From NCBI GenBank assembly GCA_030272585.1, contig BSYQ01000004.1, positions 7,192,001 through 7,256,000 of the forward strand: a DNA stretch of 64,000 nt. Direction: 5' to 3'. Below are positions 18,635-57,002 of this stretch, piece after piece (within the stretch, counting starts at the first letter, position 1; the number at the start of each line of letters is the position of its first letter). Position numbers and translations under genes: made by a program. The DNA comes from Bryopsis sp. KO-2023. Taxonomy: Eukaryota; Chlorophyta; Ulvophyceae; Bryopsidales; Bryopsidaceae. The notes under the pieces were generated by a model. That model was given only the letters and a program-made list of their open reading frames with translations, had not been told where the DNA came from and made no database searches.

Positions 18635-18735
18635 TATGAACGCTTTGGCACTCCCAACACACCAAGCTTTGTGCGCCAAACCGACCTGCTCGATCAAGCA
18701 TTCGCCACTGCACTTGCCAGTTCTACTCAGTCAAG

Positions 18736-34008: not shown

Positions 34009-34945
34009 ACAATCGTCTTCATTTTTTCCCAGTTTTTCATTATTTTAAACACCGATGGGGATTTTTGTTACCGTTTTTTTGTTTCAAACTGGCCTGGAAT
34101 CAGTCTCTTTTTTTGCTTTTTGTAAATATGGATGGATGGATTGATTGATTGAGAATTGTCATTGGGCTTGTTGTGACTTTCAAGAGAATATCTCTCCTAC
34201 ACAGTGTAATTGATGTTTGTTTGTTTGACTTTCAAGTGTGTGGAGTCGTTATGTTTTGAGGCTTCTCGCCTGAAATGGCTGACTTGTCTTTTTGCTGGTC
34301 GGTTTTGTGCATACCGTAAAAGTCCTTGAAAAGCTCCCCCCCGAAATAACGCCCACCCGTTGTACGAGTCAGGCACATACGACTTGCGACGAAACCGTCA
34401 CCTAATTGGTGACAAGAGTCTTTTACGGCCCCTTGCCGAAAAGTTTTTTATTTCCTTGCTTTGTTTCGCCCAGGGCCTATTTACGAACCTCTACGGTATT
34501 CGTGAAGGCGTTTCTCCCAGCCGCACGTTTGAACGTTTTTTTGGATGACAAATGTTTGCCCCTGGCGGGAAGAATAATTTCGGGTTCACGAAACCCCTGC
34601 GTTCCGTTAGATTCTAACGGCGTTAGAAATATCAAGACGTGCCACCACATGCTTTTCACGACTGCTTTGTGGATCACAGCCGGTGACGTCCTGCCGCCAC
34701 AGCGAGTGCTGTGTGCCTCGCGGCCGTGGAATGCGCGAGCGGCTGCCGTCGCTTGCCCAGTTGTTACTCCAGATTGTGTTTGATCCAGCCTGGAGAATCC
34801 CTGGCTTCATCCACCAGCTGTGCAGCAGCGGATGAGTAGGTCAGAGATTCGATATAAAGGTTGACCACAATACTACCCTCCACCCTCCCACTGTCGACAC
34901 ATCGATTCGTTCCCCCTGCGTCGCGAGACCCCGCACTCTTCCACA
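34009..34945. promoter_or_regulatory. Intergenic region and promoter of family member A
   Basis: No gene assigned. A 125-codon open frame at 34406-34783 has no recognisable features. A TATA box (TATAAA, 34853-34858) lies 93 bases before the start codon of member A. Confidence 0.5.
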
Positions 34946-36145
34946 ATGGCTGGTCGCTCCCTTTTGTCGGCGTTTCTTCTTTTCGTCGTTTTGTCTTGCA
35001 CCGCCCATGCGAAGCTATCGCGCAAGGAGACAAAGATCGTGACGAGCCTTCGCTCGGCCGCTGTCTCCACCTACGAGCAAGATTCCTTTTCTGTGCAGAC
35101 GCATTCCCAGTCCAAGACGACCCTCAGCCTCTTTGGATTCGCGTTCACCCAGGAATCAGAGGAAGAACAGGAAACCGTGAGGGTGGCTCGAGGCGGAGAC
35201 CGCGTGGACTTCTACGGCACTATTCGAAAAACCGAGACGATGCCCTTCACAGGATCAACGTCGACTACTGTGGAAGAAGTTGTGATTGGAGATGAGTGGT
35301 GGGCTAAACAGGACGGAAGCGCAGGTTGGACTCAGCCAGATCCCGAAGATCCCGACAACGAGGAGCTGGTGGACGATAGGGAATATTTTCAGGACGACGC
35401 AACTGGCTCAGAGGTGAGGAGTCCGCCGCTGAGAGTAGAGTACTTGCTCTGTTTTTTCGTCTCAACTGTGTGCACGCGTAATTGAAATTCCCGCATGGTG
35501 CGTCAAAATGTCATTTCTCAATTTCAAATTGTGCGTCGAATGAAGGTTGAATATTTTCATCGTCACAAACGGACTTAAAGTACTGAATCGAATTCTTTCA
35601 TTTCGTGCCCAACGAAAATGATTAACCCAGGAAAAGAAAAAAGGTTTATTGAAACTGATACTTGGCATAAGAATTGCAATCACAGCTGGTAGCACCGCGA
35701 ATTTTCCTGAATGCAGAAATGGACCCACCAGGAAAGTAGGTGCTGACTGTAAAGTTTCAACCCCAATTTTCTACACTGACAAACCACTGTTTTGCAGCTG
35801 ATGAAAGCCCTAATCACCGGAAACATCGCCAGTGTCGAGTCGATTGGTGACTCTTGCTACAATGTTGTCCCGACAAAGGAAGCTTTGCTGGAGGACGCTG
35901 GCTCTGACGAATTTGGCAGGAAAATGGTTGAGGAGGGGGAAGTCTCCGGCAGTGTCTGCGTTGACAGTGATACTGGTCTCCTGGCCTCAGTTGACATTTC
36001 CGTGGTGGCTGGTGAATTTTCTGTGGAGGTTGAAGGACACGAAACCACTGTACAGAATGTGGACGTCAAGTCAAAGACAACATTTTCAAAATTTGGCGAG
36101 CCCGTCGACTTCCCGGACACGTCTCCACCAACCATCATTACTTAA
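34946..36145 (+). CDS. Secreted protein of unrecognised four-copy family, member A (LppX/LolA-like topology proposed)
   Basis: Two exons, 34946-35413 and 35798-36145, 271 aa, phase-0 intron after codon 156. A signal peptide (LLSAFLLFVVLSCTAHA) is followed by a ~250-residue domain. Conserved in all four members: DFYG, an IGDxxWAK-type strand, SWTEP/GWTQPDPEDPD, a two-Cys pair (SCYNVVP and VCVDSDTGLL) likely forming a disulfide, and the C-terminal TTFSKFGEPVDFPD. The order of a beta-rich N-half, a helix-rich middle, CVDxxTGxL and a final YSxFGxPV strand recalls the LppX_LprAFG/LolA-like lipoprotein fold of bacteria; this is inference. Function unknown. A is the most divergent member and has the longest intron (384 nt). 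Confidence 0.75.
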
Positions 36146-37362
36146 GCCACCCTGGCAAGTCGGTGTTGTGGGATGTTCGTTTTCCAGACCCCTTTTTTTT
36201 CCATCAATCTCAATCAGCGTCTCATCTAGAAAGTTAAGTGAATTTTTGTGAGTTTTTTTGAAAACTAATTTTTGTGAGTTTTTTTTAATGTAAGGAGGGA
36301 GAAATGGTGCTTCTTGCATTTGATGGAGTGTGGCTGGAAAAACCAGTCTGGAATGTGTGATCTTCTTTCTGATAATTCCTCTGGCATGCACCCCTTCGCT
36401 GAGAAAGTTCAGTGAAAACCTGTGAGCAACTGTGACAAAAACTTTCATTTGGTTCCTCAATTCCTCAAACCACAGTCAGTCTAATTCATAATTTGCTGAA
36501 TCAAGATGTTGAAAACTCTGTCACCAACCAACAACACTACAAGACATGTTAGGCGAGATCATTGGCATCAGAATAATAATAATGATGATAATAATCACAC
36601 GTTCACGCAATCGTGACGATTTTTGGTGGCCATCAATGTGAAGTTTGACCTTAACTTCCACAGGGATACTCCCAGGTACCTTACCAATCGACTGGGAAAT
36701 CAAGTGAGTCGAATTAAAAGCTTTTGATCCCTTTAAAGGGATATTAGTATTACTATAAGTCCATTTTTGATTTTGGCTGAAAATTTTACCCCTGGGTCGT
36801 GTGTAAAAGAGATTGCAAGTTCTATTGTTTCGCTGACAGTCTCAACTCAGGAAAGATGGAATTGCACCGAATTACTAGAGATACGTGCTTGGGATCACAC
36901 TTCCGTGCAAAATTGTTCAGCGCGCAGAGCAGCAATCTTTGTTTCCTGCAATATTAAAACGCTTCACAGTGGTGGTGTTTGGATGGACCTGTGTTGAAGA
37001 CTTTGCACTTTTCTTAGTTCGCAGAGCTTTTGCAGAGCTCAATTTTGTGGTTTCCTTCCGCTCGTGGATTTGTGACTTGGTGACGTTCTCCTACCTCAGC
37101 GGCCGCTGGGCGGCTCGAGACTATTGCCGTCGTCTGGGGGCCACAGAATCCAAGACCAACGGTGGTCGCTTGCTGGGTCAATTTTGCGACGTCCACGCTG
37201 GATGGCGATCGATCTGGTAAAGATACCCGCTGGCTTCGTCCACCTGCTGTATACAGCTGTGCGTCTCCCGTTCAAGTCGTCTGTGACAACTTTTTACACA
37301 TTTCCCACCGCGAGGCCATCGATTCATTCCCCCAGGCGTCGCAAGACGGTGCCCTTTTCGCA
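36146..37362. promoter_or_regulatory. Intergenic region between members A and B
   Basis: No gene seen. It includes a palindrome ATCCCTTTAAAGGGAT at 36727-36742 and an AATAAT microsatellite near 36572. A weak TATA-like TATACA (37250-37255) lies 113 bases before the start of member B. Confidence 0.45.
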
Positions 37363-38337
37363 ATGGCTCGTCGCTCCCTTTTGTCGGCGTTTCTCCTGTT
37401 TGTAGTTTTGTCTGGCACAGCCCAGGCTAAGCTTTCGGCCAAGGAGGAAAAGATGGTGAAGGACCTGAGGGGGGCAGCTAGGACCACCTACTTGGTAAAA
37501 TCTTTTTCTGTACATAAGGCGACGACGACGAGCACGGACATGTACTTGAGCGTCTTAGACTTGCCGCTGTCCTCTGTGACGACCGAGGAACAGGTAACGG
37601 TCAGGTTGCGGAAACCAGGCAGCATAGACTTCTATGGTAAAGTTAGCAAAGTTGAGACGGACCCATTTGGAGGGGCACCCACCAAGAGCGGGGCGGAGGA
37701 GGTGCTCGTTGGATACGTGTGGTGGGCCAGAAGGCAGGGGGAAACAAGTTGGACTGAGCCCGATTTTGACGACAAAGATAACTCTGACTTGTTGGGATAT
37801 TCGAGCTCTTTCAAGGAGGATGCCACCGGCATGGAGGTGAAGTTTCTGTCGCAACGACATACATGTGTGTGTGTGGGGGGTGTTTCTTCGTTTGTATTAA
37901 ATGGGTGCACGGAAAATTAAAACATCATGCAATTATATTCGTCGTCCCAACAGCGCTGACGAACCCCTGACTCGCAGGTGCTGGACTCTCTTTACGCCAG
38001 TAAGATCGAAAGCATCGAGTCGATCGAGGCGCCGACCAACAGAGAGTCTTGCTACAAAATCGTGCCCACGCGTAAAGCCTTACTCGAGGATGTAGGGGGC
38101 GACGATTTCCTTGAGCGCATGATCGTTCACGGCAAGTACTCTGGCAATATCTGCGTGGACAAGGAAACTGGTTTTCTGTCCACTACCGCCTTATCCATGG
38201 TGACGGGTGGCTTCACTGCGAAGATGGAAGATTTTGAAGTCAGACTGAAGCGCATGGATTACAAATCGAAGACGACATTTTCAAAATTTGGCGAGCCAGT
38301 CGACTTGCCAGATGTTTCTTCACCTACGGCCACCTGA
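37363..38337 (+). CDS. Secreted protein of four-copy family, member B
   Basis: Two exons, 37363-37836 and 37978-38337, 277 aa, with the intron (141 nt) at the same phase-0 position as the other members. Signal peptide LLSAFLLFVVLSGTAQA. Shared blocks are present: DFYGKV, YVWWARRQGETSWTEPDFDD, ESCYKIVPT, ICVDKETGFL and TTFSKFGEPVDLPDVSSP. Ends in ATGA-type context ACC TGA, the ancestral-looking stop. Intermediate between A and the C/D pair. Unknown function. Confidence 0.75.
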
Positions 38338-39242
38338 GCCAACTCTCCACGTCCGCACCTCAGATCGACTTTTTTCCAGAGGAGCTGATTCTTTTACTTT
38401 CTCTACGTCCAGTATTTTGTTTCCTCCATTTTTGAGTGAGGCGGATTTTGCAGTATTTCTGGCAGGAGAAACAGAAAAACTGGTGCTTTGAAACAGAGCA
38501 TCCAGACTGATGGTTTTGTAATATTTGATATGACTGGGGTGGCTGTTTGTGCGACAACCCGATATGAGTGCCGTACATAAAACACTGGTCTGGCCGCCCC
38601 TGTCTGACTGGGGGTGCCGTGTGTTTTGTAGTTTCGTTTCCTTCCTGCCTTCCATTGTGTTCAACACATTGGGCAAATAAAGTTTATCAGCGATTGGGGG
38701 GGGGCTGAAAGACTAAACACTTGGATATCGAGTAGAATCCAAGTAGTAACCCCTTTGTAGTGACAAATTCGCATGTTGCGATCCAACCATATGGAGTTCC
38801 ACTGCGCATGTGTTTTACGTGTCGTGTCGAGGGTGTTGTGTCCCGCCCATCTCTTTCCGAAACGGTAGAGTCCCACCTTCGCGAGCTACAGTTTGGCTCC
38901 GTTGCATCCACCTGTCTCGATCGAGCTGGTCCAACGCGCGCAATGTCGAGGGGGCTTTTACAGGGAAGAACACCAAGGGGGATCGGCTCGACAGGGGGTC
39001 CATCTCGGCGCAGCAAATTACCAATTGCCGACGTTTACCCACCTCTTGAGAATTTCACACTTCTGGTATCGGAGCTAGAGAATCAACATGCCCGCTGGAT
39101 CGTGTTTGATCGTGCGAGGATACCTGGCTGTGTCACCCTGCTGTATATAACTGTGCGAATCCCACTGTCGCTGTCATAGGTTTGCCGCACTGCCCTCCAC
39201 CCACAAATTGATTCGCTCCCCAGGGCGTTACACTCTTCCACA
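38338..39242. promoter_or_regulatory. Intergenic region and promoter of member C
   Basis: From about 38838 this matches the region upstream of member D, but it carries a ~90-base stretch (about 39045-39135) absent from D. A TATA box TATATAA lies at 39144-39150, 99 bases before the start codon, exactly as in D. Confidence 0.55.
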
Positions 39243-40650
39243 ATGGCTGGTCGCTCTCTTTCGTCGGCGTTTCTCCTTTTCGTTGTTTTGTCTGGCACCG
39301 CTCGGGCGGAACTTTCGTCCGAGGAGAAAGAGATGGTGAAGAGGCTCACCAGCGTCGGTCTTAACACCTACTCTCAGAAGTCTTTTTCTCAGAGCACGGG
39401 GGTTAAGATGCTCACGACAGTAGACTCTGACGGGTCATCGGTAATCCATGATCTGGCAATTGCTCGGGTATTGGCCAGGGTGTCGAAACCCAAGAGCGTG
39501 GACTTTTATGGTAAAGTTAAGCTCTCTCAGTCCTCAACTGGAGAGGGAACCATCGAGGGTGGGGCGGAGGTGGTGGCCATTGGTGACAATGTGTGGGCCA
39601 AATACCAGGGAGAAACAAGTTGGACTGAGCCCGATTTTGATGACGATGATAACAAATACTTGTTGGAAAAATTCGACTCTTTCAAGGAGGAAGCCACTGG
39701 CGTGGAGGTGAAGTTTCTGTCGCAACGACACATGTCTGTGTATGCTTGTCCGATTCAATTTTACAAGTGTCCCGAGCACAAGAAAAGTGCGTCCGAAATC
39801 ATACTCATATCGCACCAGCAGCGCTGACGAACGGCTTACTTGCAGACGATGAAATATTTTAGCGCCGAAAATGTGGAGAGGATCGAGCTGACCAAGGCGC
39901 CGACCAAGACAGAGTCTTGCTACAGAATATTACCCACGCGTGAATTGATGTTCGAGGATTCTACCGATTTTCTCCGACAAGTGATTGAACATGGCCAGTA
40001 CCATATCACTGCTTGCGTGGACGACACAACTGGTTTCCTGTCCAGCATGCACGCTTTCCTGGAGGCGAAGGACTTCTCTGCGACGGAGCGCGGAGAGCTA
40101 TTCCAAGTGAAGCACACGATCGGCGATTCGAAGACGACATATTCCAAATTTGGCGAGCCTGTCGACTTCCCAGATGTTTCTTCACCTACGGCCACCCGAG
40201 CCAACTTTCCACGTCATCATCTCAGATCGACTTTTTTTTCATCTTGAGCTCATGCTTTCTCATATCAAATTATGATTACACACGATTTCATGCTTTTTCT
40301 ATGTTCAGTATTTTTTTATTTTTTTATTTTTGTCTCTGTCTCTTTCTCTCAAACTCAAGCAGCGTCCGTTTTTTGTGATTGAGACGAATTTTGGAGGATT
40401 TTTGGTAGGATTTTTGATTTGGAACTTGTGCTTTGAAAAAGAGCATCCGGAAAAAAATCGGGGTGGATTCTTGGTGTGCTTTTGTAATATCATATCCTAT
40501 TCTGGGATTACTGGGGTGGCTGCCTGAATCTCTTGCCCCTGCCAAGTGCGACAAATGTGCAACAGTTTTTGTATTTCAAGAAAACATCATCCAAGATGCC
40601 TGTTGTAAAAAACCCACAGTACGCCTCTCCATGGCTGCTGAGTTAACGTG
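38838..40650. repeat. Inverted duplication, left copy (member C locus)
   Basis: It matches the reverse complement of 55270-57002: upstream region, TATA box, both exons, intron and about 400 bases downstream. The spacing between copies is about 14.6 kb, spanning the apple-domain and ankyrin genes. Confidence 0.85.
39243..40247 (+). CDS. Secreted protein of four-copy family, member C
   Basis: Two exons, 39243-39707 and 39846-40247, 288 aa, conserved phase-0 intron of 138 nt. Signal peptide LSSAFLLFVVLSGTARA. Blocks seen: DFYGKVKLSQ, GDNVWAKYQGETSWTEPDFD, ESCYRILPT, ACVDDTTGFLSS and TTYSKFGEPVDFPDVSSP. Where member B stops (ACC TGA) member C reads ACC CGA, so a T-to-C change adds 15 residues (RANFPRHHLRSTFFSS-like tail). 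Nearly identical to member D. Confidence 0.77.
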
Positions 40651-40973
40651 GTGTAGAGTGCATATCACAGACCACTGGTGAAAAATCTCGACTTCCGTCT
40701 TCTTTTATCTTTTCCTCTTTTTTCCATGAGACTTTGATAGCCACTGGCTGGCCGGCGGCGCAGACTCAGGGAGGATAGTAAATTCGTCGGACAAAGTCAG
40801 TCACAAGTCACAGCGCGCGAGACAAACCATTTCCGAAACGTCTTGTCGACGGGACGTCCCCTTTTTTTTCGGAGCGATAAGAGTCTGGGTGAGTGCAAAC
40901 GGTGCTGCGTACGTTTCCCTCGCTGCTAGGATTTCTAAAACAGGCCCTGATCGTAGGAAGGGGAGCTCACACA

Positions 40974-43900
40974 ATGCGGCGGCCGATAGCATCCCTCGCG
41001 ATCCTGTTGATTTTCATCTCGTCGACGCTCCATGCGGCCGAGATAGGTCGATTGCTCCCCAAAACCACACCCCAATTTTTGTTTCTTGCGCTCTTTCCTG
41101 TCGTTGGTTGAACCGATCAACTGGACATTGGAGTGCTGCGGTGAGGAGGGCTGATGTTTCTGTGGCTGTGTTAGAGGGTGGATCTGACGAACTGCACCAT
41201 GTGCGGCGACTGGCTGCCAGAGCGAAAGCCACTTCGCTATCTCAAGGAAGCCGAGGTTCGTGCAATGGATCAGAAAAGTGAAGAAGTTGCGAAAAACGAA
41301 CGCACGTTAGTGTGGTTTCCCCCCGCATAGACCGCCCGTTTGTTTTTCTGGGAAAGCCGGTAGTTTAGAAAGGGGACATCATCGACCGAGCGATCCGATC
41401 GCTATAATGGTGGCTACGTATTCAAATGCAGATTAGCTGCTCGCTCAATAGAAATCGGCAACTACGAGGAGTGGTTTCAGACGGGAGCCGTTGACCAAAA
41501 AATAAAATATTATATCTAGAATACTACCAAAATGCAAAGTGGTCGAAGTTTTGGTTGATATTCGTTTTGATGATGTGACAGGAGCTGGACCAGTTTCCTC
41601 TTCTGCTGATGCGAAAGCCACACAGGGTGGCGATGTTGAGGTACACCTTCATTCACCTCCAGAGAATTTTCCATTCGTTTTCTTCCTATTGTTTCAACCT
41701 CAGTTTGAATTGGAGGACTCTGCGTCTATTCTAGGTTTCTTTTTTCCAAGGCTTCTTTCAGGGATGTTGTATTGTGATAGTGGGGTTTTTATTGGGGTGT
41801 TTTGAAACCAGGTGGATGCCAAAGCAATTGCTGCTGCCCAAGCCGAAGTGAAAAACGACATTGCTGAGGCCATCGCTGAAGCCATTTCGATAGTAAAGAG
41901 AGGAGGCAGTGCCAGCTCCCAGGCCTCCGCCACAGCTGAAGCAGTGGGGGTGGCCACGGCCAGAGCGGTCGCCAAAGCCAGTGTGAAGGTGATTGGCTGG
42001 AGTACCTCCATTGGTTTCGAAAGGGGGTGACACTTTCCAAAAAATCCGAACGAAACAATGCTCAAAAAGAGGAAAAAATTCCACCCCTCCCCCTCCCCTC
42101 GTTCCAAAACCAAAATTCCAAAACAAAAACAGCCTTCATGTGTCAAGTAATTTTTTGGGATAATATATCATATTTGTTTATTGGAAACCAACTAAATTTT
42201 GTTTTCTTTTTCTGACCATTTTCTATTTTCTTTTGGAGTAGATCGATGCTACTGGAAGTGCCATAGGCTCCGGTGCAGCTGAAGCCAGTGCAAAGAGCGT
42301 GGCCACTGTGGTTGCTTCTGCCATTGCGAATGCCTTTTCCAGTGCAAAGGGAGGCTCCTCAGAGGCCACCTCAGCAGTCAAATCCTCAGTATCCAGTTCT
42401 GGAATTGCGAGAGCGGCTGCCAGAGCCAGGGTGGCGGCCGAAAGCAAAGGGGGGAGTGTTGAAGTGGTGCAAGTGGTGAGCAACTTCAATTCAACTAAGA
42501 AAAAATTGGGGACCTCCCAAGTGACACTTTACAAGACCAAAAAATAGTTTTTGGATTTCTTGTCGGTTGATACGTTTTTGCTCTTCTTTTTGCTGGTGTT
42601 TTTTGGGTAAGATGCTGTGGTGGTTGCATTTTAGACTGTTTCCGAAGCAGTAACCAGGGTGGTTGCCAGAGCTATCGCTAATGCGTTAGCTGTGGTTGAA
42701 AAAGATTCGACTGTGGCCACTGCTGGAGTTGAAGCTACAACTAGAGTGAAGGAGCAAGCCACTGTGGACTCTACCAGCAGAGTCACGGGCAGAGGCAAGT
42801 TTCCCGAAGTGTTCTATCAAGAAACTCTTTGAAAGTGCATGGGAAGCTTCCTTTTCTGCCTCACTCAATTTCCCCCCTTTTTTTTCATATCTCATTTTTA
42901 TTTTTTATTTTTTATTTTTTTTTTTGGGGGGGGGCAACCGACCTGGTGCTGTGAGGTTTTCCTCTGTGGATTCTGGTGGGATGTATTATTTTTATCTGCT
43001 ACTGGATTGATTTTTTTCAAGGTAGTGCAACAAAATGTGAATTAGTTATTTAAGCGCTGGCTACAATAATAACCAATACTGTATGAGAAAGAGAGAAGGG
43101 GGGGGGGGGGGGAGCCCTTATGGATTGCTTGTATTGATGTGGATATATTTTTTGTTTTTCCTTTGGCTGCAGGTGACAGCTGTGATGTGAGATATAACAC
43201 CGATTTACCCTCTGGCAGTGGGGTGATTAATGATGGGAAAAAAGATATAGCTCGAACAGACGGAGATTGCTGCAAACTGTGCAATGATAATCCAGGTACT
43301 GTGGGAAGACGCAGGTCAGAAGCCAATACATATGTGGAGGAAATTAATAATACATCATGCAACCTTTTGTTGTGGTGTGTGTTTAGTCAATTTTTTTTTT
43401 TGATGGAAAGGGATGTATTTATTTGATGACCTGTGCACATTATCGAGGGCAGTTGTCCTGAAGGTCTTTTTGATTTTTTTTCTAATGTTCTCAATTTAGT
43501 TATTTTGCTGTGCTGCCAAGTCGATGAATTCATGTTTCCTTAAAAGTATTAAAACTATAATAACTATTTAGTGTTATTAATTCAGAAAAATTGTTTAAAT
43601 ATGCCATTTTTTTAATGTGTAGACTGCAGGGCCTGGACTAGAATCACAAAAGCGACTAAATGGAACAGGCAGGGCGAATGCTGGATGCGAAATCTTGTGC
43701 CAACCGGAAAAGCGTGCAGCCATTGCAATAGTGGAGTAAAGAAAGGCAAGTGAATAGCACCATGGAGACTCCACAATAGACAAAAAGAAATGTTTGCTCA
43801 CATACATAGAGAGAGGGGTGTGCACACGAGTTGACTCGTAAATTTATGGAGGCTTTTCAAGGATAAGGATGCTTTGTTGGTTCATGCAATTGAGGGAAAC

Positions 43901-46900
43901 CGAAGAAATACTCCTCAACGCAACATGGACCACGAGACATAGTTTTTTTTATTCAACTTTTTTTAAACCATATTCTGAACGACTTTTGCGAAAGCCGTTC
44001 CAATGAGAGGAGATTTTAAAGGTTATGAGATGTTTTCTATATTTTTCTAAACAGAAATTGAAAAGAAGAAAGACTTCCCGTTTCTCCCTCCCCAGAATGA
44101 CTTTGAAAAAATAGAATGAAAAAAAATTATAAATAGAAAATCATAAATAAAGTAAAATGAGAATTAAAGAAATCAACTGTCTGTTTAGCTTTCCTTAATC
44201 GATGATTGCAGGGGGATCAGGTTCGGCATCAGGGGATGGCAGTGCAGAGACATCATCCTCCGGTGATTCCACTGCCAAGGTATCGGAATATGTATTTTTT
44301 TCCACACTTTTTCAAGGGGTAAAAAACAAGGGCAAGTTGAAAACTTGCCCTTGTTTTTTTCATTTCCAAAACAGTTAGAAGAGCTGTTACGGGGAACTGG
44401 GCTTATTATTGTTACGGCAGTCGGGCCATAACCACTCATTTGCACAGTGGATGGATTTCAGCCTTGATGTGTGGTGAAAAAATGGAAGGACCCCGTCTGT
44501 TTTTAAATGCTTTTTTCTTTTTTTTTTTCTTTTTTAAACTTGGAAAATAAAGGTGGAGGCGCAGGCCATTGGGGAAGCCCAAACCAAAGTTAAGGAAGAC
44601 ATCGCAGAAGCCATTGCTGAAGCCGTGGCTACCGTCAAGAATGGGGGAAGTGCAAGGGCTGCTGCAACTGCAACAGCCACTGGCATTGGGACTGCTACAG
44701 CCACTGCTATTGCGGATGCTGCCATCAAGGTGATTGATTCCCTCTTCTATCCAGAAAAAAATTGAAAAGAAAACTGAAATCACATGTGGAACGACTAAAC
44801 ACTGTGTTGGAAAAAATACAAATTTCATTAAATAATTTTGATGAACAAATTTTCTTTGATGAATTACTCGAGTTTCATTCGAATTTGAGAAGCTTCCTCC
44901 TTGGGTAACTCAACCAGGTGAGAGTAGAAGGCAAAGGGTCGGGGTCAGGATTTGCTGAGTCTGGCAGCAAGGCAATTGCCAAGGTTGTGGTGGATGCCAT
45001 TGCTGAAGCTTTTGCCACTGCAAGTGGCAGTTCGAGAGCAGAATCCAGGGTCAGGGCGGAAGTCAGCGAACAAGCTGTAGCGGAGGCAGCCGCAAAAGCT
45101 GCTGTTCGGGCACACAGTTCTGGAGGCACAGCTGAAGCCTATCAGTCAGTAAGCAGTCAATATCACTTGGGTTCGAGATTTTCACCTCTCCTTCGTCGAT
45201 AGTCTATTTTATGGGGAGAAAGAAAACAGAAAGAAAGTGTCCTCCGCTGTTTCGACTTTTCACAGTTTTAGATTTCAGATTAGTTCACGTAGTTTGTGGG
45301 CTGGCCAGTTGCTTTTTTTTCCCTTCTTATTCCTTTATGGTACGTCTTGTTCATGTTTTGTTTTATGTGTGGGTTTAGACGGTTTCGGAGGCGGTGGCTA
45401 ACGTGGTAGCCAAGGCTGTAGCTTCTGCCCTTGCTGTTGTGGAGAACGATGTTTCCAGAGCAGAGGCCTCAGGAGAGGCCATTTCTGAAACCGGGAAAGG
45501 CCAAGCCTCCGTGCTAAGCGACAGCGGCTCCTCAGCATCTGGTAGGGAATCTCTCATTCATGAGTGAAATTTTTTTTTCGGCCAACTTTTCAAAACCCCA
45601 GAAAAAACTTTACTAAAAACTGGATGAAAATGTGCCAATCAACGCGTACAGAAAAAAAAATTCAGACACCTGCTCTCCATGTTGAATGGAAAATCCAAGC
45701 CCTCAAGTGCCAATAATGTTTTCATTCTGGCTCCTACAGTTTCATTACTAAAACCAAGAAGTGGGAAAAATATCCTTGGTTTCCTTCACATTCTCTGCTA
45801 CAAAAGCTGTGGTCCACTAGATTTTGTTTTGGTTTTTTCGACTTTTGACTTTTTTTTTGGTGGTGTTTTTTTGTTAGAATGCACTATCCAGTGGGGCACC
45901 GACTTCCCCGGTGGTGGTGTGATCAACAACGGAAAATCTGATATTACCCGTAACGAAGAGGCCTGTTGCAAGTTGTGTGCCTCGACCAGCGGTAAGAAGG
46001 AAAAATATTTAAAAAAACAATAATTTTCAATTAAAAAACCAATTAAATCCAATAATCAATACCATAATAAGGAAAACTAGCTAAACAAAAAGCAATAATT
46101 AAAAAAATAATAATTTTCAATTAAGAAACCAATTAAATCCAATAATCAATACCATAATAAGGAAAACTAGCTAAACAAAAAGCAATAATTACGGTCAAGC
46201 AAATAAAATTGAATTTTTTGAATCCATTGTGAATATAAAGCTAAAAAAGAAAAAGTGATCAAAACCTCGAAATTTAATGCCAAAAAGTAAACAAGAGGAA
46301 AACCTTGAGATTTGATTTTTTCCCCAGGCTGCAAGGCTTGGACCAGAATCTCGAAAGCCACCGAGTGGAACAAACTGGGCGAGTGCTGGCTGAGAGAAGT
46401 TGTACCTACGGGCCGATCATGTGATCACTGCAACAGTGGTGTGAGACAAGGCAAGTATCAAATCCAACACCCTTTTCACATGATTTTGAACATTACCACG
46501 AGAACCCTCTTTTTTTTCAAGAAGTTGCAGGCTTCACTGTACTGCAAGTTTTTTGGATGGAATGTTTTTTATTCGTACTTTGGGATTTTTTTTTCATTTG
46601 AAGCGGGATGAAGTTTGTTTTGGTTAAATTTTTGTTTTTTCAATCACAGGGGGTGCTTGTGGAGATAAGCCCGTTGATGGAAAATGGACCTGTGCCCAAC
46701 AGGTTGGGAAATTGACACAATACTTTTTTCTGCATCTTCTGTGTAAAATTTTTAACAAGAACAACAGTACACACTTCCTTTTTCTTTTTCTTGTTAAAAC
46801 TTTTATACAGAGGTGTTTAAAAATTTCATAACACACATTTTGTTGAGAAGTTTTGTACTGCGTGTGTCTATTTGTATGTACTGTCTGTGAGAACATTCTT

Positions 46901-47552
46901 CATCAAAAAAAAAAAGTGTGAGCTGTGGATCCATGCAGAAAAAGAGAATATTTTTTTAATTGATGTTTGATCAAGCATCTGGATCGCTTGTACTTCTATT
47001 GTGGAGTCCTATCTGTTCCGTAGCCCCGAGCATTTTTTTTTGTCCTGAAAATATTTATTCAGGAAAAATAAACATTCCTGAATATAAATAAATCTCCTGA
47101 TACTTTTTGTGATCTCCTGATTCTTGTTCTCATTTTGGTGTGGCACAATTTTTTTGGTGTCTACAGAAAAGTTTCGGAAAATGTAGTGAGGCTTGGATGG
47201 TATCCGGAGGCTACTGTAGAACGACCTGTGGCCGATGTGGTAAGCAGAGAATATGGAAAAAAATTCTTTCACTTCCATCATGGTTATTATTTTTCTGAAG
47301 TTGTAATGGGAAAAATCTCCATTGGACAAAAATACCAGCTGTTCTGAAGTTGTAACAAAACAATATCCAGATTGGCCAAAAATACAGTCCAAGGAGTGCT
47401 TGTGTATTGTGAAAACTTGTGTGGATATGTTTCGACAGTCGAAATACACTTTTTATTTTATTTTTTTGTGGTTGCAAACATTTTATTTCCTTCACATTAC
47501 AGGGTCTTCATCTGGTGGAGGTGGGAGTGGCAGCGCGAACACCTCTGGATAG
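40974..47552 (+). CDS. Secreted Ala-rich protein with two PAN/apple-like domains and internal duplication
   Basis: Seventeen exons: 40974-41046, 41175-41255, 41582-41640, 41812-41988, 42242-42475, 42635-42800, 43173-43295, 43623-43745, 44212-44279, 44553-44729, 44918-45148, 45379-45541, 45878-45991, 46328-46450, 46650-46702, 47167-47239 and 47503-47552. They sum to 2088 nt, 695 aa. Signal peptide at 1-22 (ASLAILLIFISSTLHA). Residues ~52-345 and ~346-637 are the same six-exon module: Ser/Gly linker, three Ala/Val-rich helical exons (DIAEAIAEA, TVSEAV), then a two-exon Cys-rich domain (GVIN, CCKLC, AWTRI, GECW, CSHCNSGV) of the PAN/apple type. A short tail has KSFGKCSEAWM...YCRTTCGRC and Gly/Ser. 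Probably an extracellular adhesive or wall protein. The donor of exon 6 (GCAA|GTTTCC) is weak. Confidence 0.82.
44321..44359. repeat. Perfect 18-bp hairpin in an intron
   Basis: AAAAAACAAGGGCAAGTT is followed, after the loop GAA, by its exact reverse complement. It lies in the intron between exons 9 and 10 of the apple-domain gene and would form a very stable RNA stem. Confidence 0.85.
46021..46191. repeat. Two-copy 90-bp tandem repeat in an intron
   Basis: Units beginning at 46021 and 46111 are nearly identical AT-rich sequence (TAATTTTCAATTAA start), inside the intron between exons 13 and 14 of the apple-domain gene. Confidence 0.9.
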
Positions 47553-49717
47553 GCGAAATAATTCAATATACGAAGCGTTAAGCAAAACAGAAGGGGGGAA
47601 AAAAAAGAACAAGCTGGAACACGTTTTGGGTTTTTGCTCTTACTATTTCTGTTGATCAGGATGGCTGTGTTTTTTTAAAATTTTAGGAATTCTTGGAGTT
47701 TTTTCTTGTTCTGTGTTGGATTTTGAAGTGTCGTTGAATGTTTTTCTCTCAAAGAGGGAAAAGTGAAGAAAAGGGTTTTTGCAGAATCCAAAAGGGGGTT
47801 GAGAAAGTTAAGAATTTCGGTGCATGAGTCGTTTCTCGATTTAACAAAAAAAAAGATAAGAAAAAAACAAAGGATGGAGGTGTTGATTTGATAGGAACAG
47901 TCTAATTTCAAGGTTTAGGTAATTTTGCATCTCTTTTTTTTTTGGTGTTTGATGGGGTTTGCCCTGAATATTTCGTAAAAGAGTCTTTCTTTTTCAAGGA
48001 AATTGACGAGAAGACATTAGGTGGATTTTTTGACTGGACCATGCTGCACTGCCAGTTGTGTGCCGACAAAAAGTCAAAATAGGGAACGCGTTAGTTGGGC
48101 AAGCGGACAAGGGAGCTATTTCATTATGTCAATTGGCTAAACAGGAGACGATGGATTTATTTTTTTTGGAAGCAAGTTCTTGTGCTGGGGTTGCCTTTCC
48201 CCTTCTCTTTCCCCTTTTGTATCTTATCTGCCTTTCTAAGCAAAAATGGACACATAGAAAATAGGTGGTCCATTCCAAAGAAACCAACACAGTATGTACT
48301 GTTGGATGTTTTATTATCACTGATTTATATTTATACGAAAGGGCCTTGTTCTGTTTCACGGAGGGGACATCTGAAATTTGGAGAAATCCTCTGCATCTGT
48401 TTGAAATGTTTTGGTGGGGATACTAAAGTGTCCACCACATTTTACTACTTGAATTGCCATACAGTGCTGCATATAATACTTTCCAGCTAGACACATCGCT
48501 AGAACTTCATTTCTTGAACTGGTAGGTTATTTTCAGTGCCAACATGTGGAATGCATCCAACTTTTGGGCTGCCAACTGTATAGGTTCTTCAAAGTTTGCA
48601 ATGACTTTATGATCCTATCACCAAATTTCGGACATCCATTTCCCAGTTAAACACTCATTTTCACAAATTGTTTTGCTAAAGGTGGCGTTCCCCGTACAAC
48701 GAAACTTGACAGTGTCACAATGGCCCTCCTAAAAACACGATTCAATTACATTCAGAAACTGCCCTCTGACAAAGCGCCCCAACTTTGCCCTCATCTGATA
48801 GATTAGATTAGAAAGCCAAGGAAATATCCCGTAAAACAATGTTAACCCCAGTTGTACTCCCCCCTTCTCGGGGAATCAAACTTATACAAATCGAAAAATA
48901 AAACTATAAACTACCAACAAAAGAAAAAAAAAGAGCCCATCAAGAAACCATCGCGACCGGTTTATTTTTTGGTTTATAGAAAAAAAAAGAACCCACAAAG
49001 CCGATATACATCGTGAGGAGGAGGTCGATCCTTCCCCCCACCAATTCCAGCAAAACCCTAATAGTACCGATTCATTCGACAACCGTGCACGCACGACCAA
49101 ATTTTCTTGTATTTTTTTTTGCCACCTAGATTTTTCACCGAAATATTCAACTATACACATGGGTAGTTTTTTTTGATTTTTTCTTCTTTGTGGTGTTTTT
49201 TTTTTTAAAGTAAATGCATTCGACCACATCGACGAATTCTTGAATCCCAAATCATCACGAAAACGGACGACCCACATTTCATTGCATTGTTCTCGATGTG
49301 TGCCATCCAACAAATTCTATCAAATCGTAAAACCTCAACCGACCATGCTAAACTCCTTGCACAATTCCCCCAAAGAAAACACTCGAAACTAGCACATGAT
49401 CGATACCATTCAACCGACCATCCTTTTCCGCACTCAATCCTCCATGAATCAATTCAATAAAATCAATGGACCATCACTAAAAAAAGACACGATCAATGAT
49501 GCACCTATCCATGATCATGCATGCGTATTTGATGCGAGCATCCCTTTATCCATAAAGTGATGGGTCGATCGACATCTGATGAACCATTCAACCCGTTTTG
49601 TCGCAAACCTAGCAATCGTCCATGATTTCAAGCATACGTTAGATTCTCGAATTAATCCCCCCCCTTCTCTTTGTGACCCTTGCCTTTGAATTATCTTGTG
49701 AGGAAAAAGTGGTTTGA
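47553..49717. other. Convergent intergenic region without a gene
   Basis: It lies between the 3' ends of the apple-domain gene (+) and ankyrin gene (-), so it must hold both 3' UTRs. No coding frame with sensible composition; a 143-codon minus frame at 48882-49313 is Lys/Phe-skewed and featureless. Confidence 0.5.
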
Positions 49718-52700
49718 TCACTGCTTGCCGAGGAGTTTGAAAATATTGAACTTAATGTCGACCGTGCAGAATCCATGTTCGCATGCAACGTCCATGACGC
49801 TTTTCCCCTTGCGATCAACAGCTTTTTTATTGGCACCTGATTTTATTAAAAAACAAAAAACAAAGCCACTTTTTGAATGAATATCGTATGTAGTACATAG
49901 CGCATATCGAAGCCAACATCTTCTCAAAAAATGCTCAGGGAATCATTCAAAAAAAGATGAGGTCTCATTTATTGTTTAGTTTATTCTCAAATTTAACAGA
50001 AATGATAAATTTTAGCACGAATTCACTCGACAGAAACTCGAAACCTTTACGAAAACGTAGGAAAGTGGGGCTATTCTTAAGGGCACGGCTGCTGAAGCTG
50101 ACTTATGTTTGGTAAAGACTGCAGATGATCCAAAAAAGATCCAAAAAAAAAGCATACATATCTTTTTGATGTAACGATGACCCACCAGCATTGACCAGAC
50201 TTTTCACTACGTCTTCCCTGCCGATGCCTGCAGCCCAATGCAAGGCTGTAGCCCCAGTTTTGTCTCGAGCGTTGACTTCTGCACCTGGACAAAAACAAAG
50301 AGTTTGATTTCCTCAGACCTCTCTTTTGCTTCAACCTCTTTTGAATAAAAAAATTGAACATAATATAGTTTTGATACAGGGAAAAAGTATCTACCGACAG
50401 GCGAGCAGTCATACCTTCAGAAATGAGAACATCTGCTACCATTGCTTTCCCATTCAAAGCAGCCCAAAGCAATGCTGTAGCTCCTAGTTGACCTTTGCCA
50501 TTCACTTTGGCTCCTAGATAAACATAGATCAAAGTCAGACAATTCGAAAACAGCGAATTCTGGAGAGCAGAATTTTTAAGTGGCTTTCTTTAACACTCAT
50601 CGGGTTTTCTGGCAAGACAAGACAAATGGGTTCTCAAGAAACCCTCTGATTGCATGTTGATATGATTTAGTAAAATTAATATGATCAGTGTGAAGTGTCG
50701 GTTACCTTCTGCAAGAAGAACTTCTACAGCTGAAGCATGCCCCCAGTAAGAAGCTTCGATTAACGCTGTGCTGCCATCATCGTTTTTGGCATCCACTTCA
50801 GCCCCTGCATATTTCCCCCGACAAGAATGAAATAAACAAAAATAAAATAAAATGAAATAAAATAAAACAATCAACTAAATTTAAACTCGCAAAAATTTGG
50901 TTTCGAAGCAATAATCCAGCATCCAGCTTCCCAAAGCCTCTTCACAGGTACAGGTTATTTTCATCCGTACGGAAAAAAAGAAAAAGAGAAGAAAAAGAAA
51001 AAGGCTCCTTAAACAGGGTCTTCAATAATGCTTTCTTTCGAGTTGAAAGTCACTTAATTAGTCATCTCTTGATGCTTGTATCGACTCGCTCGCAGAATAT
51101 ATAATTATGAATGCTATATATTACCTTCGTCGATCAAATACTGCAAAACATCCACCCTGCCTTTCCAAGCGGCCAGGATGAGCGGAGTCCATCCATAGTC
51201 ATCTTTCGCCTCAATATCAGCACCCCTCAATACTTGCTCCTTTTTGAAAAACAAACGAAAAATTAAGCCAGGAAAAACACACACACACACAGAAAATAAA
51301 AGATGATGTGTCAATACCTGATGCTTTTTTGACTCAATAAACTGTAGGTTTCTTCTTCTTCTCAAAAATCAAGAATCTTATCTATGATTTGCATGCTTCT
51401 GAGGCTGTGAATTTCAAAAAGAAAACAAGCAGAAATTTCACCTAAGTTAACAAATAAGAAATGTGTTGGCAGTGGGGCATACAAACCCATAGAAAGAAAG
51501 AACATATATCAAAAACACTAAGCACCCTCACAAACTGCACTTAACTTCCACTAGGCAAGAAGGTTTTTTTCTTTTTCTTTTAGTACCTTGACCAAATTAA
51601 CGTCTCCACCCTCTGCCGCAGTGAATAGATTCTCAGTGACTACCTTGCATTCTTTTTTGGTCGAGCATTTCTGAAGAGTGGAATGAAAACAAAAATATGT
51701 ATCAATAGAAGAACAGAATTAATATGTTTTTTCCAAATCAGAAAATGAAATGAAAATTTGAAATGTTCAGCAAGGGGCGGACCAGCATCGGCAATAACAG
51801 TCACATCGCAGGGAGAAGAGGTGCAAGATTGAAACTACCAAAAGAAAAGCATGATTCTGATCGAATAACAATCATAGTTTCTCCCCTTTACATATTTGTC
51901 CATAAAAAGAATGATTGGTTCAAGGTATACCTTCACTGCAGGAACTGCTGGCTCTTCAATGACTACAGCTTTGGTAGCTTTCTTTTTCTTTCCTTTTCCA
52001 GTGTTTTTTTTCGCTTTTCCGGTGGGTTTTTTCGCTTTTCCGTTGGTGCTTTTTTTTGCGGAAGTGGATGTTTTCTTGGACAGGCTGGGTATCGCCTAGT
52101 TTCAAAAAAATCGCACAACATTGAGTCACAAATTCAGGGACACTGTTACAAACCAAAAACGTGTTTCATGAAAGTTAAGAAAAATGCCTGGAGTATCACA
52201 ATATTTGTGGAAAAAAGAATCAGTGCAGGAAACACAAGGGCAAAAAATCAAGACAGCCTTCATCGATGGACATAGCCCAGTTTTCTCCGCAGAAAAGGGG
52301 GCCTGGTTAGATGTGAACCTCAATAAAAGGAAAGCTTTAAGGGATATGTGCATATGTCAGTCATGTAGCCCACCTTGCAATCAATCGGCTGAGGGGTCAT
52401 GTGGCAACGCTCTGTCAGTTTTTCCCTGAAAACAACATATGTCACAGTCTTTTCCCTCTTTTCATCATGGGAAAAAGAGCTTATGCAGTTGATTCATGTC
52501 CTAAAGAAAATAGCAAATGCATGATGGGGACTCACATGAATGGCACCACTCTCATTGCTGCGGAATCACAGAGGTTGGCCACGAAATCGCTCCAGCAGTC
52601 CTCTTCCATCTGGCACATCAAAGCATAAGAGGTTTAACTGGTTTCTAAGAGAAAAGTTTCCATGTTCACTGAGGTTTTTTTCCCCACCCCTTCCCCCACA

Positions 52701-54292
52701 CCCTAAAAAATAACTTTTTAAGATGGGGGGGCGAACGTCAACATGGAATGTAAGGCAAAAAATGGGAAATACGAGAAAACTATCCTATGGCGTTCAGGAA
52801 CAGCAATAAGAAAACTGAGTCACACAGAGGGAAAGCCTCTACTCAAACAACATACCTCTCCAAGGACAGCACCACAGGTTTGGGTACAGCATCCCTCATC
52901 GATGTTTATATCTGTTTGGCAACCCCCCAAAAGGTCGCTGGTGCTAAATTTAGAGCACGATTTTGGAGTGGGGATAGCTGGAATGGCAGCCACTGGAAAC
53001 ACACACACACAGGCAAAACTCTGAAGCTATTGGGATCAGGCCAATGTCACTGATGGACTTAAATTATGGTGATTTTTTGAGCGTAGGGCTGGGAAAACAC
53101 ATGACTGTGGCCCTTGGGTGGCGGGGGGGGGGGTTGAATTCCAACAGCAATCAACTATCACAACAGCAACGCCTCACACTGAAGCTTCCTGATTTCAAGA
53201 TTTCAATCCTATTTGAGTCAAGAAATTAAGAAAAACAAATCTTGAAGGTGTTGCTGAGTTTCTGTGCTTACGGGATTCAGGGTCGAGCGGCATTGTCACT
53301 GGGGTGACCACAGTGGTGGTGCATACCTACAGAAAAAAACACCATTATTTTTCTTATGCGCTCGCAAGTGTCGACAACTGGAGGTTTCCAGTTCACAGTA
53401 AGGCTCAACCAAGCATATCGGTGCATATCTGTCTTTGTTGATGAGTCTACGCAGATCTGAAAGTTGGCTTGTTGTTCATCTTGTTCAATGGTGGGGGGAA
53501 CAAAACGTAGACATGTAACTAATGACATGTGAGGACCATGGCTTACCTTCAGTCCAATGGTTGCAGATGCACCCTTGGCCTGCAGGGTCCGCCCACCTTC
53601 AAAAACACACACAGCACAACATAAACATACCACACAGCTGCTCATAATACATTTCCCCAAGTATGTTTGCTTTACGATGGCAATCCACACAGCAGGGCTC
53701 GGAGCTTAGGCGTTTCTATTTCATTTCTTTGCACACCGTTTTGTTTCTGTGCCTCAAGTTTTTTTAATTTCAAGTGATAGTAATTATTCACAGAACCTAG
53801 AGACAACAGATATACTTCTGCAGAGAGGTTCAGTTAGAGCCATTGTTCCGTTGATTCTTTCCTTATGTGGTGCTGAATAAAGAATATGTGTGCTTATCGG
53901 GAAATCAGCGCGTGGGGGTCCTCTGAATTGAGTGCTGCGTGCCCCCTAGCAAAAGCGGTCAAGCTCAATCTTCTCGACACAAGCTGCTCGTATTTTTTCT
54001 ATCGTTTACTCTACACAGCACCTCATATACGCTGACCTTGAGGCAAGAAAAACTGTGTCGACCAAGAAACCCTCCCACGAAAGTATGAAAACGTGTGTCA
54101 AGACATACTGTTCAAGCCTTCCTGCAGCTCTTCACGGAACGACGGGAAATTTTGTTCAGCAGCGAAGGGATGCCGTGGAAGCGAGGAGGTGGCTGGGTCC
54201 AGTCCTTGCGCGAACCCAACAGATCCTTGCCAAAAAGATAACACTAGGACGACCAGCGCCAGCACTGGCGCTCGGCTCGAAGACGAAAGCAT
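49718..54292 (-). CDS. Secreted Cys-rich, Lys-rich, ankyrin-repeat protein
   Basis: Thirteen exons (minus): 54109-54292, 53547-53596, 53272-53326, 52856-52992, 52536-52609, 52374-52425, 51931-52095, 51587-51670, 51125-51236, 50706-50804, 50415-50513, 50186-50284 and 49718-49836. They sum to 1329 nt, 442 aa, all phases closed. Residues 1-29 form a signal peptide (LALVVLVLSFWQGSVGFA). Residues ~90-184 hold about ten Cys (CSKF, GGCQ, GCCTQTCG, DCWS, NLCD, RCHM, DCK). Residues 185-239 are a Lys/Thr/Ser-rich linker (KKPTGKAKKNTGKGKKKK). From ~250 come four and a half ankyrin repeats (ADIEAKDDYGWTPLILAAWKG, TALLWAALNG, TALHWAAGIG). Three consecutive repeat exons are each exactly 99 nt (33 aa), all phase 1-1. 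Ankyrin repeats are normally intracellular, so a signal peptide is odd. Confidence 0.82.
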
Positions 54293-54563
54293 TTTGATTA
54301 AAAGAGTTGGCAAGAAACCTCTCCCGACAGGAAAAGGGCTGCGTCCCGCGATAGGTCTGAACGCACACAGGTTGCTTTTTCACTTTCCGTTGAGGAGCAA
54401 GGAAATTGTGCAGAGGCAAGCGCACAAATTCTCCAAAATTACGAAAGCACCCCGTGACGTCAAGCATTTGTTCTTGATAATGAAAAAATTGCTGCATGGG
54501 GCATTTTTGGAGCATGAATTTGTCTTTTGAACCATCCATGCTCCACACTCAATCCATATCACC

Positions 54564-54606
54564 CCAGTCATACCTCGTACTCAGACATAGTACGAGGTAT
54601 GACTGG
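54564..54606. repeat. Perfect 18-bp inverted repeat
   Basis: CCAGTCATACCTCGTACT and its exact reverse complement flank the 7-base loop CAGACAT. It lies 272 bases upstream of the ankyrin gene start codon. It could be a cruciform-forming site, a regulator site or a small hairpin RNA; nothing in the sequence decides. Confidence 0.85.
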
Positions 54607-55269
54607 ATCGTTGGATAGGGGAATTTTTTGGCAGGGATACTCCAAATGTCGTTTTAGGAACGCACAAGCAGAGCGGTAGAGACTGAGAGCTCGGGCTGGT
54701 AGTCAATGTCAGGTTTTCTTCTGATGACTGCCACGGATTGTTTTCTTTTTTTTTACCCTGGGACTGTGGGAGACTTCAGCAAGTGATTCTTTAAAAGTTT
54801 GTGAAGTTTCAGGTGGATTTGTTGGAGGTTTTAATGGCGTCATTTCAAGTACTCGAAATGACACTATGGTGTAGCTAAACTTCAGGGGTCATTTTTTAGA
54901 GCGTGAAGGGACCAGTGATTGGTTTTCAGGGCTGGGGTTTTTCTTTCAGTTCGGTGATCGATAAGTAGGATTTGCAGAATCCTTTCTTTCTTTTTCTTTT
55001 TCTTGGTTGCGCAATTTTCTTTCTTCCTTTGTCTGTATAAATCGATGGTTTAATTGATGGAGGGTGCGCAGTCGAGGGTTGATCTGTCGGCAGTGGGAGT
55101 TTGAGGATGAAATTGGTACGACAGGCTGAAGGGGTTAGAAATTGGAAAATATCATCGACTGTGAGCTTTGGGTTTTTCCCTGGCAGCTCTCACTGTTCGT
55201 CCTGTTTTCCGTCGAAAACTATTTTCTCCTCCCTGTCTGGTGTCTCTGGCGTGAAAAAAACTGCTAGTT
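54607..55269. other. Intergenic stretch with one half of a direct repeat
   Basis: No gene seen. About 55089-55150 matches 57213-57280 in the same orientation (shared core TTTGAGGATGAA...TTGGTAC, then ACAGGCTGAAGGG). Confidence 0.5.
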
Positions 55270-57002
55270 TGGTGATTCCAACCCAGCAGCCATGACTGTC
55301 GGAGAGGCTTACTGTGGAATTTCTACAGCAGGTAGTGCCCAATGGGGTCCTGGATGATGTTTTCTTAAAATTGAAAAAATGTTGCTCAGTTGACCCACTT
55401 GGCATGGGATGGATGTCAGTTGACCAGGCAGCCACCCTAGTGATCTCAGATATGATATTACATAAGCACACCAAGAATCCACCCCGATTTTTTCCCGGAT
55501 GCTCTTTTTCAAAGCACAAGTTCCAAATCAAAAATCCTACCAAAAATCCTCCAAAATTCGTCTCAATCACAAAAAACGGACGCTGCCTGGGTTTGAGAGA
55601 AAGAGACGGCAAAAAAACCATAACGAACATAGAAAAACCATGATATGGTGTTTGCTTGTTTGATTTGAGGAAGCATGTGCTCAAGACGAAAAAAAAGTCG
55701 ATTTGAGGTGATGACGCGGAAAGTTGGCTCGGGTGGCCGTAGGTGAAGAAACATCTGGGAAGTCGACAGGCTCGCCAAATTTGGAATATGTCCTTTTTAA
55801 ATCGACAGTCGTGTGCTTCACTTGAAGTTGATCTCCGTCGTCCGTCACAGAGAAGTCCTTCGCCTCCAGGGAAAAGCTCAAGCTGGACAGGAAACCAGTT
55901 GTGTCGTCCACGCAAGCAGTGGTATGGTACTGGCCATGTTCGACCGCTTGCCGGAAAAAATCGTCAGCATCCTCGAACAGGAATTCACGCGTGGGTAATA
56001 TTCTGTAGCAAGACTCTGCCTTGGTCGGCGCCTTGGTCAGCTCGATCCTCTCCACATTTTCGGCGCTAAAATATTTCATCGTCTGCAAGTAAGCCGTTCG
56101 TCAGCGCTGCTGGTGCGAGATGAGTATGATTTCGGACGCACTTTTCTTGTGCTCGGGACACTTGTAAAATTGAATCGGACACGTTTACACAGACATGTGT
56201 GAATGGTGCTATACATGTGTCGTTGCGACAGAAACTTCACCTCCACGCCAATGGATTCCTCCTTGAAAGAGTTGAATGCATCCAACAAGTCTTCGTTATC
56301 ATCGTCATCAAAATCGGGCTCAGTCCAACTTGTTTCTCCCTGCTTTTTGGCCCAAACATTGTCTCCAACGACCACCACCTCCGCCCCATCCTCCATGGTT
56401 CCCTCTCCAGGTAAGGAGAACTGAGAGAGCTTAACTTTACCGTAGAAGTCCACGCTTTTGGGTTTCGACACCCTGGCCAATACTTGAGCTATTGCCACAC
56501 CATAGATTACCGATGACCCGTCAGAGTCTACTGTCGTGTGACTCCTCACCCCCGTGCTCTGAGAAAAGGACTTCTGAGAGTAGGTGTTAAGACCGACGCT
56601 GGTGAGCCTCTTCACCATCTCTTTCTCCTCGGACGAAAGTTCCGCCCGAGCGGTGCCAGACAAAACAACGAAAAGGAGAAACGCCGACGAAATACAGCGA
56701 CCAGCCATTGTGGAAGAGTGTAACGCCCTGGGGAGCTAATCGATTGGTGGGTGGTGGGCAGTGCGGCAAACCTATGACAGCAACAGTGGGATTCGCACAG
56801 TTATATATAGCAGGGTGAGTGGGTGAACGTCACCAATTGGTAATTTGCTGTCTCGAGATGGACCCCCTGTCGAGCTGACCCCTCTCAACATCGCTGCTAA
56901 ATCAGCCTGGATCAGCTCGATCGAGAGAGGCGGATGACAGAATAAACAAACTGTAGTTCGCCAAGGTAGGACTCCACTGTTTCGGAAAGGGATGGGTGGG
57001 AC
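55270..57002. repeat. Inverted duplication, right copy (member D locus)
   Basis: Reverse complement of 38838-40650. Flanked at 55.1 and 57.2 kb by a ~65-base direct repeat not found beside the left copy, which suggests this is the inserted copy. Confidence 0.8.
55681..56708 (-). CDS. Secreted protein of four-copy family, member D
   Basis: Two exons, 56241-56708 and 55681-56082, 289 aa, conserved phase-0 intron (158 nt). Signal peptide ISSAFLLFVVLSGTARA. Very close to member C across DFYGKVKLSQ, GDNVWAKKQGETSWTEPDFD, ESCYRILPT, ACVDDTTGFLSS and TYSKFGEPVDFPDVSSP, and it shares the C-terminal extension after the lost stop codon. TATA box TATATAA is at 56801-56807 (minus), 99 bases upstream of the ATG. 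Substitutions relative to C cluster in the loops, with the Cys pair kept. Confidence 0.77.

Follow-up and report, generated by a model that had tools for sequence, protein, structure and literature searches.

A small family of secreted proteins in the green alga Bryopsis sp. KO-2023, probably distant relatives of the bacterial LppX/LprG/LprF lipoproteins

What are the four similar genes that lie on contig C4 of Bryopsis sp. KO-2023, within a window of 64,000 bases (C4:7192001-7256000; the assembly holds 91.1 Mb in 28 contigs), and is there a known protein family to which they could be related? The window is here the whole stretch of DNA that was analysed. A first-pass annotation, made from the sequence alone, had read the four genes, which we call g1 to g4, as an unrecognised family of secreted proteins with a possible fold of the bacterial lipoprotein type. 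Our comparisons suggest that they code for secreted single-domain proteins that are probably distant homologues of the LppX, LprG and LprF lipoproteins of mycobacteria and other actinobacteria, with a probable LolA-type half-barrel and a probable role as carriers of hydrophobic ligands. The gene models are given below, with positions counted from the first base of the window.

34825..34945 (+): g1 leader region, putative; a TATA-like stretch and a 5' leader ATCGATTCG...TCCCC...CTCTTCCACA ahead of the ATG, like the leaders of g2 to g4
34946..35413 (+): g1 exon 1; signal peptide, N-terminal helix and first half (putative shelf I, strands 1-6, in the order suggested by the alignment)
35414..35797 (+): g1 intron; 384 bases, GT-AG, phase 0
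35798..36145 (+): g1 exon 2, including the stop; second half (putative shelf II), SCY and CVD cysteines, tail TFSKFGEPVDFPD
37363..37836 (+): g2 exon 1
37978..38337 (+): g2 exon 2, including the stop
39243..39707 (+): g3 exon 1
39846..40247 (+): g3 exon 2, including the stop; 16-residue extension
56241..56708 (-): g4 exon 1
55681..56082 (-): g4 exon 2, including the stop; 16-residue extension as in g3

The two-exon structure described by the first-pass annotation held for all four genes, with starts at 34946, 37363 and 39243 on the forward strand and at 56708 on the reverse strand, and each gene spliced to an intact open frame (271, 277, 288 and 289 amino acids in g1 to g4). The introns, of 384, 141, 138 and 158 bases respectively, all have GT-AG borders and phase 0 and share one codon position, after GSE, GME, GVE and GVE, which bears out the common intron position as well. 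The other shared features were likewise found in four of four: a signal peptide with an AxA-type end, recognised by inspection and read as ending in HA before K in g1, QA before K in g2 and RA before E in g3 and g4; a mature chain with two cysteines and no more, one in SCY and one in CVD; and the C-terminal motif SKFGEPVDxPD. The g3 and g4 proteins carry their 16-residue tail because a CGA codon stands where g2 has its TGA stop. Identity to g1 is 50% for g2, 42% for g3 and 43% for g4, far beyond chance.

The four intact genes stand, but a family of four members was too small a count, since two distant paralogues and three degraded copies lie elsewhere in the genome; these figures are themselves lower bounds, the genome search having scored the best candidates only. 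The paralogues, found in exon searches of the genome, are L017 on contig C5 and L015 on contig C8. In L017 the intron stands after the same GVE codon as in the family, the signal peptide is read by inspection as ending in HA before L, and the C-terminal end is TYSNFGKPVYIPDP. In L015 the intron position is equivalent, and the sequence KFSDFGVKVDFP is followed by a linker rich in Gly and Pro and then by a hydrophobic C-terminus which, by inspection, resembles a glycosylphosphatidylinositol (GPI) signal; the L015 signal peptide, which has cysteines inside it, was read as ending in HG before Q. In reciprocal searches exon 2 of L015 retrieved g4 at E 3.5e-4 and g1 at 0.04, and exon 2 of L017 retrieved three of g1 to g4 at E 0.10-0.59, which is weak alone but is backed by the intron and the cysteines that L017 has in common with the family. 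All six mature chains have exactly two cysteines, and the exon-2 alignment of the six holds 10 invariant residues, both cysteines included. A search of the genome with exon 1 of g4 returned nothing beyond g1 to g4, the degraded copies (all three) and a single chance match (E 5.6). The degraded copies (L005, L006 and L007) are identical and lie on C4 at 6.12, 6.17 and 6.21 Mb, with a shortened exon 1 and with a frame break and an early stop in exon 2; the triplicated segment around them is identical across 3162 bases. The segment also has a match to a light-harvesting protein close by and a copy of the gene following g3. The light-harvesting proteins of the genome look to be of the green type. 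Scans of viral and genome contigs gave no relatives, though the alignment-based ones rested on one peptide pattern and may have missed near kin of the host.

Kinship with the LppX type is suggested by comparisons of profiles. PF07161 (LppX_LprAFG) sequences were taken from 6 of 18 actinobacterial genomes and from 23 of 149 (21 over the cut-off), one genome being in both. The first bacterial set had 29 rows, including one misplaced open reading frame (ORF) that lies beside the match in locus L156; the correctly placed sets were a strict one of 16 rows and a full one with 29 usable rows of 31, and the widest set had 35 rows. The algal profile was built from the six members with their signal peptides removed. 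A 15-row bacterial profile searched against the PDB found the structures of LprG (3mh8, E 7.7e-61), LprF (4qa8) and LppX (2byo), the weakest at 6.9e-27 and nothing else below 0.8, and the bacterial set therefore represents the solved family. The ORF beside the L156 match, which was not found by Pfam with a query sequence that was slightly inexact, and the first ORF of L050 are further LppX-like lipoproteins in the actinobacterial loci.

In the profile-profile comparison the first set gave a probability of 94.3 and a score of 54.8 over 142 columns, and its controls scored 13.8 when reversed, at most 17.2 in 200 column shuffles and at most 33.3 (42%) in 200 shuffles of ten-column blocks. The strict set reached 74.4 over 132 columns, the full set 92.9 over 188 columns (91.5% with g1 to g4 alone) and the widest set 95.3 over 198 columns; for the correctly placed sets, 100 block shuffles gave at most 11.2% and 13.8%. 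All the alignments keep one register, and those of the correctly placed and widest sets, 132-198 columns long, take in the strand pair VVIGDEWWAKQDGSAGW; depending on the set, the similarity extends over a large part or most of the mature chain. Taken alone, the exon 1 half gave 40-47% and the exon 2 half 38-76% with the widest set, the corresponding figures for the first set being 15% and 81%. H-type lectins, an unrelated family, gave 0.07%. Single sequences had little power, with at most 2.4% for 109 Escherichia coli ORFs and 0.1-32% for single LppX rows.

Searches of sequences with bacterial hidden Markov models (HMMs) pointed the same way, in a pool of 1151 sequences made up of the six family members, the six-frame ORFs of the window and the ORFs of the bacterial loci. 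The HMM of the widest set placed five of the six family members (g4 at 1.7e-7, g1 at 8.2e-7, g3 at 2.8e-5, g2 at 0.0057 and L017 at 0.02) above every true decoy, the best of which had 0.059; above the family stood three bacterial members, all of them rows from which the HMM was built, and between its members came unspliced readings of the same exons. In the strict-set search g1 (4.5e-4), g4 (0.0014) and g3 (0.0049) stood out from a best decoy at 0.69, and the first HMM gave 24.8 bits to g4 and 13.0 to g2, with 8.0 for the best of 1806 shuffled or reversed members. We regard homology of the algal family to the LppX/LprG type as likely.

Several results weigh against this reading. Pfam searches at E<=10 with the six family proteins (here and below, L015 minus its first exon), NCBIfam searches with five of them (g1 to g4 and L017) and a PDB sequence search with g1 and two profiles returned chance matches only. 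Much of the profile signal comes from the tail motif, whose removal left 26% with the first set, 18% and 56% with the correctly placed sets and 34% with the widest. The strict set compared with g1 to g4 alone gave 53.4%, single algal members against the bacterial profile 22-87%, and narrower alignments (five algal and 15 bacterial rows, trimmed to the match ends) 13.9% in hhalign, in the same register, and one of 100 shuffles of twenty-column blocks reached 80.7% with the widest set, at a score of 41.8. L015 was missed by the bacterial HMMs (E 5.6 with the widest, 11 with the first, 30 and 58 with the correctly placed sets), and its 1.8 bits with the first HMM lie below the best shuffle; g2 was weak in two HMM sets (E 18 and 0.98), and L017, at 0.85, fell below the best decoy of the strict set. 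In the reverse search, with the family profile against the bacterial members, the first had E 3e-4 and most were above E 1, the second being the misplaced L156 ORF (0.0076) and the third a correct row at 0.13.

The sharp drop without the tail, the 14% obtained with narrower alignments and the single block shuffle at 81% could also be explained by an unrelated, lineage-specific secreted family in which the end motif S-x-[FY]-G-x-P-V became LppX-like by convergence. We consider this unlikely, given a single register that runs over 132-198 columns and includes the strand pair, an exon 1 half that is free of the tail and still gives 40-47% (widest set; 15% with the first), and the far lower values of the other shuffled and reversed controls. 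The link to LppX/LprG proposed by the first-pass annotation thus drew support from profile-profile and profile-sequence comparisons with controls, and lost some of it to the narrower alignments.

A profile check against PF07161, LolA and DUF6612, where a known half-barrel family might have come to light, came back empty, with no Pfam match among the six family proteins at E<=10. PF07161 itself (curated cut-off 24 bits) matched none of the six, and searched genome-wide it gave no match, its controls being likewise silent. DUF6612 (PF20316) is touched by way of the bacterial relative L168, which matches both PF07161 and DUF6612, and had no direct match in the algal proteins in the Pfam scans. 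No strong profile match to another known family was found in Pfam, NCBIfam or the PDB sequences either.

With the LppX_LprAFG proteins (LprG 3mh8/3mh9, LprF 4qa8, LppX 2byo) the algal family has in common the order in which conserved segments follow one another along most of the mature chain, export as a single domain and the end motif, there sdfGkPVtI..P, whose S-x-[FY]-G-x-P-V strand falls within the algal-bacterial profile similarity. Unlike them, the algal genes are eukaryotic and have an intron, two added cysteines and longer loops, and they lie below Pfam detection. In LppX_LprAFG proteins the mature chain by definition begins with a lipobox cysteine, which anchors the lipoprotein, whereas by inspection g1 to g4 and L017 have no such cysteine after the signal peptide. 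Because two defining features, the lipobox and a score over the Pfam cut-off, are absent, we do not file the family within PF07161 and treat it as a eukaryotic variant in the same superfamily; on the best reading it would be a branch of the LppX/LolA-fold superfamily that is eukaryotic and secreted and is probably stapled by a disulfide.

The LolA-type fold is already known in eukaryotes, since EPDR1 has it, in a superfamily in which LprG is also placed and which has clades in all domains of life (PMC6363788). The earlier statement that no eukaryotic family fits was in this sense too broad, EPDR1 being an established eukaryotic LolA-type branch (PMC6363788), although the algal family has neither the cysteine pattern of the ependymin-related (EPDR) proteins nor a Pfam match. 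Could the family then consist of highly divergent EPDR proteins (PF00811)? These are secreted, belong to the same fold superfamily as LprG and have clades in protists and land plants (PMC6363788). It seems very unlikely, as PF00811 matched none of the six family proteins at E<=10, in a search whose HMMER filters drop most weak matches, and the C-terminus is different. The EPDR cysteine pair, moreover, nearly always links strand 6 with the tail that follows strand 11 (in EPDR1, C113 with C210; PMC6363788), while the two cysteines of the algal mature chains both come before the last strand, if the strand places are read from the alignment. A genome-wide PF00811 search also gave no matches, and neither did its 14 controls. 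As for LolA, LolB and RseB of E. coli, which belong to the LolA-type superfamily (PMC6363788), their single sequences gave 0.07-0.43% against the family profile in hhalign and just 0.4-1.3% against LppX too, so this comparison lacks power. Ordinary plant non-specific lipid-transfer proteins (nsLTPs) are secreted as well, and their lineage exists in green algae (PMC9832785), but they are small helical proteins that need an eight-cysteine motif; since the algal proteins, of about 250 residues, have just two cysteines and lack a Pfam match, the chance that they belong there is practically nil, and we exclude it because of the cysteine count.

If the alignment is followed, the algal proteins probably fold as a LolA-type half-barrel, in which a lid sits between the two halves of a curved beta sheet. 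The N-terminal helix and the strand pair align with bacterial counterparts, as do the SCY and CVD strands, the last strand and the helix that precedes strand 7; the intron is placed after the end of the first half and ahead of that helix. A lid region joins the two halves in EPDR1 (PMC6363788); the algal intron may lie in this lid loop, each exon then coding for about one half-shell. The two cysteines would stand on neighbouring strands of the second half and may be joined by a disulfide. Of the 29 bacterial rows, one (L168) has a cysteine within the same CY context, and inspection found no row with both. In the alga the lipid anchor of the bacterial proteins would have given way to free secretion, or to a GPI-like tail in L015, and the groove would hold a lipid or other hydrophobic ligand that is carried outside the membrane, in the cell wall, the vacuole or the medium.

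As to function, we lean towards a secreted carrier of a lipid or other hydrophobic ligand as the best reading, a hydrophobic ligand pocket being described as the unifying feature of LolA-type proteins (PMC6363788). The same source reports diverse functions among proteins with this fold, and structural, adhesive or regulatory secreted proteins that keep the fold and do not carry lipids, like VioE and RseB among bacteria, are a doubtful though by no means negligible prospect; the near-neutral ratios of nonsynonymous to synonymous change (dN/dS) in the young gene pairs, 0.83-0.97, need no conserved ligand. In detail, dN/dS is 0.42-0.61 for g1 against the others, 0.95-0.97 for g2 against g3 and g4, and 0.83 for g3 against g4, a pair whose introns are 97.1% identical (138 columns) and whose coding sequences are 91.7% identical (864 columns). 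For carriers of hydrophobic ligands, the diversity of the tandem copies together with these ratios would fit tuning to different ligands, or drift. The final strand changes little (proportion of nonsynonymous differences, pN, 0.03-0.14 in the four pairs cut into segments), and in the second beta hairpin and the lid pN exceeds its synonymous counterpart, pS, in g2-g3 and g2-g4. On the larger blocks no significant excess of replacement change was found (for exon 2, Fisher p 0.13-0.34); g1-g2, the g1 pair tested, did show a significant deficit. Because the block tests were not significant and low pS could reflect gene conversion, we do not claim positive selection; the pattern resembles that of a small tandem family evolving by birth and death.

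If the kinship is real, the family would be a second eukaryotic branch, besides the ependymin-related proteins, of a fold whose best-known examples are bacterial shuttles for lipids and lipoproteins, and the eukaryotic branch closest to the mycobacterial LprG/LppX type. Our searches of the open-licence literature turned up no published account of a eukaryotic family of the LppX/LprG type. The reading gives a testable fold and function to a family unrecognised by every library used and, if true, candidate extracellular lipid carriers in Bryopsis, whose cells can be rebuilt from extruded protoplasm (PMC3252328). The surroundings of the genes include lectins:

18640-19116 (+) and 28107-28574 (-): two secreted H-type lectin genes, nearly identical and in opposite orientation (PF09458, E 4e-20)
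18892-19092 and 28131-28331: spans of the PF09458 matches in the window

PF09458 has 12 matches in the genome, nine of them on C4, the two in the window included. Lectins said to take part in wound healing and protoplast regeneration include BPL3, which is of the H-type and comes from Bryopsis plumosa (PMC5793061). A comparison of upstream regions gave no convincing promoter element common to g1 to g4 and the window lectin genes, and the lectin locus showed no direct repeats upstream and no Rfam match. One could imagine that this siphonous alga acquired or anciently retained an LppX/LprG-type carrier, which became an extracellular, disulfide-stapled family whose half-shells are each encoded by one exon, and which multiplied on a contig with many H-type lectin genes, supplying lipids or pigments for wound sealing and membrane rebuilding round the extruded protoplasm. 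The tie to wound sealing is conjecture, and the scenario as a whole a long shot.

A secreted-looking gene, apparently with introns, follows directly after g3 from 40974 onward (+) and starts with MRRPIASLAILLIFISSTLHAAEIG; a long ORF in another frame at 40730-41281 had no Pfam match. The window also holds the following features.

11804-12316 (+): leucine carboxyl methyltransferase-type exon (PF04072)
17019-17456 (+): probably a sulfiredoxin, to judge by its FSGCHRYEAH motif; match of the ParB_N type
43073-43426 (+) and 45628-46023 (+): exons with PAN-like CCKLC motifs; a weak PAN_4 match (E 0.0034, below the cut-off) in 45628-46023 only
63646-63776 (-): U4 spliceosomal RNA gene (98.3 bits)

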